A stretch of 35,631 nucleotides of DNA from positions 1-35,631 of the forward strand of contig JAKIUE010000012.1 in the NCBI GenBank assembly GCA_021647715.1, in the 5' to 3' direction. Source of the stretch: Sulfurovum sp. (GTDB lineage: Bacteria > Campylobacterota > Campylobacteria > Campylobacterales > Sulfurovaceae). Both the position numbers and the translations under genes were made by a program. Under the pieces are notes generated by a model, which was given only the letters and a program-made list of their open reading frames with translations, made no database searches and had not been told where the DNA came from. Within the stretch, counting starts at the first letter, position 1; each line of letters begins with the position of its first letter. Positions 8,439 through 10,776 of this stretch are shown here, piece by piece.

Positions 8439-9719
8439 CTACAGTACCTGATAAGCTATGTCAGTACGACACTGCTTACCTACAAAATGTACTTGTCCCA
8501 CAAGCATATATGCACGTTTTTGTGCTTGCGCTATACTGTCACCTACGCCTACACACACTAGGACTCTTCCACCACTTGCATAAAGCTTTCCATCATCTGT
8601 CCCTGCATCTGCCCGTGTTACCCCTGCATAAGAGATATGTGCATTAACATTTAGTTCTTCATGATAGATATCATCAACAATGATTTCTGCCATAGGTGAA
8701 CTTTTATACGGATAACCTTTTGATGCCATAACCACACCCACTGCATACTTATCATGAAACTCTATCTTCGCATTTCTCAATTCACCAGTAGCTGCCTTGT
8801 AAAAAAGTTCAGAAGCAGGAGACTTAAGTAAAGGCATAAGTACTTCACACTCTGGGTCACCAAAACGTACATTATATTCTAAGATGATAGGTTCATCATT
8901 GACTACCATTACACCTATAAAAAGTACACCAGTAAAAGGCATCCCCTCTTCTTTCATACCTTTAAGTGTTGGTTCTATCACTCTTTCGTTTAATTTACGA
9001 TATATCTCATCATTCACAAGTGGTGTAGGTGCATAAGCTCCCATACCTCCGGTATTTAGGCCTTCATCACCATTGAGAAGTTTTTTATGGTCTTGTGCTG
9101 CAGGTAGCACCACATAATCTTTTCCGTCACATATAGCAAATACAGAAAGTTCATAGCCGTCTAAAAATTCTTCAATAACTATGCTAGTTCCTGCATCTCC
9201 AAATGAATTTCCTAAAAGCATTTGTTCAGCTGATTTTTTTGCTTCATCATGGCTTTGTGCGATGATAACACCTTTTCCACCACATAAGCCATCGGCTTTT
9301 ACCACAATAGGAACTTCGAGTGTTTTGATAAACTTATAGGCATCTTGCAAAGAGTCTGTCTCTATATATGCAGCTGTTGGTACATTATGCCTAGCCAAAA
9401 AGTTTTTCATAAAGATTTTAGAGCCTTCTAATTGAGCCGCTTTTGCGCTAGGGCCAAAGATAGTTAAACCTCTTGCCTCAAATACATCTACAACGCCCTC
9501 CACCAAAGGTCCCTCTGGACCTACTATGGTTAAATCCACACTGTTTTTTTCAACAAAGTCAGCGAGTTTAGAAAAATCCGCAATATCTAGATTCTCACCT
9601 AAGGTATCTGTAGCACCATTACCTGGAGCAAAATAAATCTTCTCAACATTATCATCTTTACTCAGTGCTAGACCTATAGAATACTCTCTACCGCCTGAAC
9701 CTAAAATCAATACATTCAT
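8439..9719 (-). CDS. purD: Phosphoribosylamine-glycine ligase (GARS)
   Basis: A 426-residue ATP-grasp enzyme joining phosphoribosylamine and glycine, the second step of de novo purine synthesis. [19 protein letters not shown] is the N-terminal GARS motif; the usual 'GREHA' histidine is Y here. [15 protein letters not shown] and [23 protein letters not shown] (ATP-grasp glycine loop) follow, then the signature stretch [11 protein letters not shown] and the metal-binding [13 protein letters not shown]. The length is normal. GGAG 7 nt upstream supports the ATG. It is the first gene of the long minus-strand operon to 1953 and is preceded by a long unusual leader region. Confidence 0.95.
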
Positions 9720-9734
9720 ATGTTTTCTCCGAAA

Positions 9735-9762
9735 AAATTAAAAATTAGAAATTAGAAATTAG
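9735..9762. repeat. Tandem heptanucleotide AAATTAG/AAATTAA, four copies
   Basis: One AAATTAA followed by three exact AAATTAG copies with no spacer. It starts 16 bp upstream of the purD start codon, inside what should be the purD 5' leader. A related 7-bp tandem run occurs at 30571-30590 upstream of lon. The copy number is low; it could be a slippage site or simple A/T-rich drift. Confidence 0.7.
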
Positions 9763-9780
9763 AAAATGAATATTCTCTAT

Positions 9781-10140
9781 TTACAATACTATCTTTCTGT
9801 AAGGATATTTCTCAGTAGTTGTTGCGCTTGTGCGTAGAGGATTTTGGAAAGATTTGAGGCGAACTTTTCCATTCGTCGATAAACTTTACAAAGTCCTATG
9901 CGTGCAATGACAATAACTAATGAGCCCGGGTGAGCGTTCTGTGTGAGTCGGCCCTAAATAGCCAACGGTGTAGGAGAGAGTCCCTCTTTAGGGGCTAATT
10001 TCTCGTATCAACTTAAGACACTCAAGCGAAATCTGCCACACACCAAGAGACTACATGTCCCACTAAGATTAATGTTGGACCCCAAATACAGTAGTCGCAT
10101 CACCTAGGTTAGGTAAATTATAGCCTATTTGGAATTATAC
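9781..10140. other. Gene-free, higher-GC, hairpin-rich element between hemD and purD (possible ncRNA or degenerate mobile remnant)
   Basis: No convincing gene lies in 9720-10146. Over 9841-10080 I count about 44% G+C, clearly above the A/T-rich neighbouring spacers. Hairpins: GGCGAA 9858-9863 with TTCGTC 9872-9877; AGTCCC 9979-9984 with GGGGCT 9991-9996; and a nested pair, GACTAC 10049-10054 with GTAGTC 10091-10096 enclosing GTCC with GGAC. In the first two the imperfect pair is G-U if the plus strand is transcribed but A-C on the minus strand, favouring a plus-strand RNA. Both strands also have start-less open stretches (minus 9789-9953, plus 9958-10107), which may mean decayed coding sequence. 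I checked for tmRNA, RNase P, SRP and 5S signatures and see none. Confidence 0.45.
10117..10125 (-). promoter_or_regulatory. Candidate promoter reading toward purD
   Basis: GGCTATAAT on the minus strand (TATAAT at 10122-10117), about 25 bp past the hemD stop. It has the same GC-TATAAT form as the HU and atpE candidates and no -35. It would make a purD leader of about 390 nt that includes the structured element. GCCTA/TAGGC arms (10123-10127 and 10142-10146) beside it could form a short hairpin ending hemD. Confidence 0.45.
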
Positions 10141-10146
10141 TTAGGC

Positions 10147-10776
10147 TTAAATAAGTGATTTTGCCTTTTTTATACATGACTCAATAGATGGTTCATCTGC
10201 AACAAGTACCCATGCATTTTTGGGTAAATGTTTTTTTGTCACTTCTCCAATAACTACGGCTCGATAACTTTCATCCCATCCAAAATTATTTAAAAAGCAC
10301 TTGATGGTTGAAGGTGAAGTAAAAATAATGATGGCATTTTTCTTAGGTCTTTTTTCTTCACTATATGTAATACATGAAGTTTCATAAATAATCTTTTCTT
10401 TAAGTTCTATATCTTTTGATGCTAAAAATTCTTGACTGTCAAAAGATATGACTTTTGGACGCAAATATAAAATATTTTTATTTTTAAAGTTTTTTACTAT
10501 CTCTTCATTTAAAGTTTTCGCATAGAATTTTTCTGATTTATATAAGACTGTACCACCTAGTTTTTCTATCAGCTGTGCTGTAGCATTACCAATAGCAATA
10601 CAAGGTGTATTTTTCCAATGATTATTTATTTTTTCTATACATATAACTGCTTGTTTTGAAGTAAATATTAACAAATCATAGGCATCAAATATAATATCTT
10701 TTTTAAGCATCTGAAACTTAATCATAGGAAGATGAATACAATTCTCATGTGCTTCAGGTGAAAGTAGATAAATCAT
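10147..10776 (-). CDS. hemD: Uroporphyrinogen-III synthase
   Basis: A 209-residue cytoplasmic enzyme that closes hydroxymethylbilane to uroporphyrinogen III in tetrapyrrole synthesis. The family is poorly conserved, but the two-lobed pattern is visible. Lobe one has DLLIFTSKQAVICIEK and CIAIGNATAQLIEKLGG. Lobe two has NAIIIFTSPSTIKCFLNNFGW, with the usual 'FTSpS.v..f' motif, and YRAVVIGEVTKKHLPK, which matches 'iGetTa.al...g'. The length is slightly short but within the family range. The ATG directly follows the stop of the CDF gene (TAAATG), so the two are co-transcribed and probably translationally coupled. Confidence 0.88.
   Translation of the reverse strand: MIYLLSPEAHENCIHLPMIKFQMLKKDIIFDAYDLLIFTSKQAVICIEKINNHWKNTPCIAIGNATAQLIEKLGGTVLYKSEKFYAKTLNEEIVKNFKNKNILYLRPKVISFDSQEFLASKDIELKEKIIYETSCITYSEEKRPKKNAIIIFTSPSTIKCFLNNFGWDESYRAVVIGEVTKKHLPKNAWVLVADEPSIESCIKKAKSLI

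Follow-up and report, generated by a model that had tools for sequence, protein, structure and literature searches.

What lies in the gene-free stretch at positions 9781-10140 of a 35,631-nucleotide piece of Sulfurovum DNA (hereafter the window), between two genes that are both read on the minus strand? No protein gene falls within it, and its GC content is 41.9%, or 45.3% over 9811-10110, compared to 35.0% for the whole window. The preliminary description, made from the sequence alone, had thus correctly noted a gene-free segment of higher GC content in A/T-rich DNA. It treated the several hairpins of the segment as parts of one element of undecided nature: a structured RNA of the plus strand, a long purD leader such as a riboswitch, or decayed mobile DNA. 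The hairpins exist, and are divided between two elements on opposite strands. We consider it likely (probability about 0.85) that the stretch consists of a minus-strand gene for 6S RNA, abutted by a MITE-related hairpin on the plus strand. Most of the site is ordinary, being 6S RNA; what is new is the repeat family to which the hairpin is related and the strand-specific conservation of its fold. The features are as follows.

8439-9719, minus strand: purD, phosphoribosylamine-glycine ligase, neighbouring gene (TIGR00877, 488.7 bits)
9811-9924, plus strand: MITE-related hairpin, antisense to the spacer between 6S RNA and purD (R1 match, fold, covariation, homology to dispersed elements that bear terminal inverted repeats and are flanked by target duplications)
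9924-10110, minus strand: predicted 6S RNA gene (ssrS), about 187 nucleotides, both ends inferred (RF01069, RF00013 in relatives, covarying closing stem)
9925-9936, minus strand: 3' side of the helix that closes the 6S RNA, shown as single-stranded in the Rfam purD model (covarying helix with 10096-10108)
10096-10108, minus strand: 5' side of the helix that closes the 6S RNA, beyond the Rfam purD model (12 pairs with 9925-9936)
10117-10122, minus strand: TATAAT, predicted -10 box of the 6S promoter (read directly from the sequence)
10147-10776, minus strand: hemD-like uroporphyrinogen-III synthase, neighbouring gene (PF02602 HEM4, 117.6 bits)

Just upstream of purD, at 9733-9768, the window also carries an AT-rich repeat of the TTAGAAATTAGAAATTAGAAA type, which has at least 10 more matches in the same genome and many in the genus.

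The minus-strand RNA

An Rfam search, which the preliminary description had proposed as a check, gave a significant match on the minus strand: the purD motif (RF01069) at 10054-9924, with 76.1 bits (E = 6e-13) for a cut-off of 41 bits. Of 200 Campylobacterota genomes, 191 carry this motif, each as a single copy; it is absent from all 14 control genomes. In relatives, strong conservation continues 50-60 bases further 5' than the Rfam boundary and reaches a conserved promoter. The 25 bases that precede the RNA (CTTCTAAC..CAAATAGG.TATAAT) are kept across the genus. The TATAAT at 10122-10117, already recognized as directed toward purD, is real and points to a minus-strand RNA; it is the predicted -10 box of the 6S promoter, and its spacing places the putative start of transcription at about 10110.

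Alignment of the full-length RNA from 99 sequences revealed a stem that closes the molecule, formed between 10108-10096 at the 5' end and 9936-9925 in the 3' tail. This closing stem displays 176 compensatory cells, against a maximum of 101 among shuffled alignments, and contains, in the minus sense, 211 G-U against 29 A-C cells. RNAalifold, applied to the same 99 sequences, predicts the closing stem, an internal (central) region and a terminal stem-loop, as expected of a 6S RNA. Three further traits of 6S RNAs are found here, namely a promoter of its own, a single copy per genome and broad conservation. The pair 9981/9994, previously read as a G-U wobble of the plus strand, lies inside this minus-strand RNA; it is not conserved and its two arms belong to other helices.

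The Rfam 6S model itself (RF00013) aligns end to end (1-187), at the same place and on the same strand, in 6 of 20 diverse relatives (L106, L120, L091, L097, L099 and L098), and again end to end in G040, which was found in a separate search. The best of these scores, that of L106, is 45.2 bits (E 2e-6) for a cut-off of 46.4, and the weakest alignments (L099 and L098) are not significant on their own. None of the 41 genomes searched scores above the cut-off, and the search of the window with RF00013 gave no match. It is for these reasons that the 6S identity is argued from homologues and from shape; the scores fall under the cut-off because the sequence is divergent.

Transcriptome work on C. 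jejuni had described an abundant 185-nt RNA upstream of purD, which folds as 6S RNA, has a pRNA, and starts further upstream than a shorter version once proposed as a purine riboswitch; its homologue in H. pylori is likewise found upstream of purD (PMC3847290). The 6S identification was therefore already known in principle, and the Rfam entry keeps the old label. Taken with the comparison of homologous sequences, this makes it almost certain, in our judgement, that the minus-strand RNA is the 6S RNA of the Campylobacterota.

The preliminary description was right about a structured minus-strand RNA starting at the TATAAT; the riboswitch that it envisaged has given way to 6S RNA. To our knowledge, no ligand of a purD riboswitch has been described. 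That the RNA is a metabolite-sensing purD riboswitch would agree with the cis-regulatory typing of the Rfam purD motif and with its usual location, but is very improbable given the full-length matches of the 6S model in relatives, a closing stem that covaries and extends to the transcript start, a linkage to purD that is not strict (the RNA adjoins fbp in L026 and an unnamed ORF in L106) and the published 6S data from C. jejuni (PMC3847290). The purD motif entry in Rfam represents an incomplete 6S RNA under a cis-regulatory type; therefore, annotation pipelines may credit the Campylobacterota with a false purine riboswitch and fail to label the 6S RNA.

As to its mode of action, the 6S RNA gene would be transcribed on the minus strand from its own sigma-70-type promoter, with the TATAAT at 10122-10117. 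The RNA, through its closing stem, central bubble and terminal stem, would imitate an open promoter and bind the housekeeping sigma-70 RNA polymerase, from which it would then be freed by the synthesis of a short product RNA. This is the most likely mechanism here, judging from established 6S biology and the published C. jejuni data.

The plus-strand hairpin and its dispersed relatives

A structured RNA of the plus strand, as once proposed for the whole stretch, survives as a predicted fold for its left third (9811-9924), with homologues, covariation and a G-U bias; the rest is minus-strand 6S RNA. The plus-strand fold of 9825-9912 has a free energy of -33.3 kcal/mol (z = -4.9), compared to -14.9 kcal/mol (z = -0.65) for the minus-strand fold of the same stretch. 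A terminator of the 6S RNA was considered and rejected, since the hairpin folds poorly on the minus strand. Matches to miRNA-type Rfam families (let-7, mir-8186 and mir-2831) were far under the cut-off and were taken as chance.

We built a covariance model, R1, from 31 sequences of the genus. It matches the window at 9811-9928 on the plus strand with 115.9 bits, the score of one of its own 31 model sequences. The hairpin adjoins the 6S RNA gene, in antisense orientation to it, in about 34 of the 42 genus loci tested (most of which supplied R1 sequences), and is lost or much altered at the purD site in the other 8 or so. No R1 hairpin was found beside 6S RNA in the 8 loci tested from other genera. 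At five loci (L010, L128, L130, L131 and L132), the spacer between 6S RNA and purD is palindromic still, with a sequence so strongly drifted that R1 no longer scores.

When the hairpins are aligned, 94.4% of the cells are paired, against 40-52% in slid controls, and 20 of the 36 pairs show changes on both sides; none of 500 shuffles equalled the hairpin on any measure. The covariation across homologues that the preliminary description had suggested looking for is thus present in both elements, in the closing stem of the 6S RNA on the minus strand and in the hairpin on the plus strand. Read in the plus sense, the hairpin alignment contains 164 G-U and only 9 A-C cells. The pair 9859/9876, which had been singled out as a plus-strand G-U wobble, is borne out: it sits in the apical stem, within this strong and conserved G-U excess. 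One-sided changes placed on a tree went from Watson-Crick to G-U 30 times and to A-C 9 times, where the unpaired columns of the hairpin, taken as the baseline for mutation bias, predict 48:64 (P = 1.6e-5); these event counts are supportive rather than precise, because part of the purD input of the tree was misaligned. The skew of G-U over A-C means that it is the plus strand that folds, and fits RNA or single-stranded DNA alike.

The hairpin has relatives elsewhere. R1 matches a second copy in the same genome (C112:3423-3539), up to 19 in other genomes of the genus and 41 in G216, a complete genome from another family, some reverse-strand matches being included in these counts. R1 is palindromic and, in the window, gives 57.8 bits on the strand opposite to its match; neither weak matches nor structure alone are therefore proof of homology. 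A profile of the purD-site hairpins based on sequence only matches the dispersed copies in the same orientation, with E values down to 1.6e-11, and finds no matches in reversed sequence. The dispersed copies measure about 159-163 bp, are mostly intergenic, lack coding capacity and end in the inverted terminal repeats CCCAAATC.../...GATTTGGG (CCCAAAT TIRs), sites for which were also located in G216. Exact 5-bp target duplications flank 12 of 32 copies, where 1.2 would be expected by chance. The same plus-strand skew recurs among them, with 188, 58, 84 and 35 G-U against 19, 6, 2 and 3 A-C cells, respectively. By these features of their sequence, the dispersed copies form a MITE-like family that is not in Rfam: a search of a sample of them against that database gave no credible match, and no description of the family was found in the part of the literature covered. 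No orientation rule emerged for the dispersed copies (the left gene points away in 25 of 40 cases, which is not significant), and viral contigs contained no match to the single exact pattern of the repeat core that was searched.

Several observations concern individual copies. Underneath the apical stem, every subfamily among the dispersed copies L185-L224 has a conserved internal loop in which GAG faces GAU; the surrounding sequence is TTTGAGGCG..CGTCGATGATTTT. In three genomes of the genus, the tmRNA gene is immediately preceded, on its 5' side, by a copy in the same orientation (L205, which is C112:3423-3539, L206 and L209). The outer arms of these copies differ widely between genomes and remain complementary. 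That such a copy is part of the tmRNA was rejected, as the tmRNA model begins after it. In G216 (L239; C1:389697-389815 and 389938-390069) the repeat is also found beside the 6S gene, there upstream of it. An integron attC site was rejected as well: the RYYYAAC/GTTRRRY core sites are absent, by eye, from the ends of the hairpin, and the TIRs and target duplications of the dispersed copies also disfavour it.

Origin and possible role of the purD-site hairpin

The sequence matches make it very likely that the purD-site hairpin (about 114 nt) and the central part of the MITE-like elements of about 160 bp, which are scattered through some Campylobacterota genomes, are homologous. At the purD site itself, no terminal inverted repeats are visible and no target duplication is recognised. 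This copy is therefore a relative of the MITE family rather than an intact MITE, its terminal repeats having been lost or never present. It is probably a fixed, MITE-related copy, and we infer that it originated as an inserted MITE. Most likely, it was inserted in an ancestral member of the genus Sulfurovum and then retained. Of the decayed mobile DNA once considered for this stretch, the kinship with a dispersed repeat family bearing TIRs and target duplications stands; the hairpin cannot be called decayed, because its fold is maintained.

Since the ability of a single strand, the plus strand, to fold has been retained, a plus-strand transcript bearing the hairpin is probably under selection or, less likely, single-stranded DNA. 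DNA hairpins, too, tolerate G-T better than A-C. A role for the hairpin in the form of single-stranded DNA, during transposition or replication for instance, would suit a mobile family whose dispersed copies share the G-U over A-C skew. Nevertheless, the TIRs and 5-bp target duplications suggest a double-strand transposition for which no folded single strand is needed, and the fixed purD-site copy maintains its fold without TIRs; we regard this explanation as unlikely. We give equally little credence to a neutral relic, in which template switching between inverted repeats would have kept the arms matched without any functional selection. The tmRNA-adjoining copies, with arms that diverge together, and the loss or alteration of the hairpin at some purD sites would fit such a relic. 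Template switching, however, would yield Watson-Crick pairs and not an excess of G-U over A-C of 164:9, and the new one-sided changes show the same G-U bias.

A specific RNA role of the hairpin beside 6S RNA or purD is possible and rather doubtful. It is a similarly speculative proposal that the hairpin is an exapted, MITE-derived non-coding RNA that became fixed beside 6S RNA in Sulfurovum, is transcribed in antisense to the spacer separating 6S RNA from purD, and is selected for its RNA fold; this RNA might perhaps affect 6S processing or purD expression. In the hairpin beside 6S RNA, the retention of a mobile palindrome next to a global RNA regulator can be put to the test.

Comparison with known systems

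The minus-strand RNA resembles 6S RNA/SsrS (RF00013) in its length of about 185 nt, its location upstream of purD, its architecture of a closing and a terminal stem around a central region, and the end-to-end alignment of the model on homologues; it differs in its divergent sequence, and its product RNA and polymerase binding are predicted. It is matched directly by the purD RNA motif (RF01069, 76.1 bits), a model that lacks the 5' portion and carries a cis-regulatory type in Rfam, the full RNA being longer and equal to the putative 6S RNA.

For the hairpin, two groups of repeats invite comparison. GTAG- and CGTC-tagged REPs have been reported in Sulfurovum sp. NBC37-1 (PMC3733652). Like them, the present repeats are palindromic and occur in the same genus, and the foot of the hairpin reads AGTAG in many copies. 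REPs, however, are 20-40 bp long, while the repeats described here measure about 115-163 bp and bear TIRs as well as target duplications; other subfamilies (G216) lack GTAG. The second group comprises MITEs whose RNA folds are robust, namely ERIC and YPAL of Yersinia, Bcr1 of Bacillus cereus and NEMIS of Neisseria (PMC3733652). These share with the present family a non-coding nature, TIRs, short target duplications, a long hairpin fold and intergenic dispersed copies. The family described here differs from them in sequence and host phylum, in the fixed purD-site copy devoid of terminal repeats, and in its marked plus-strand G-U bias.
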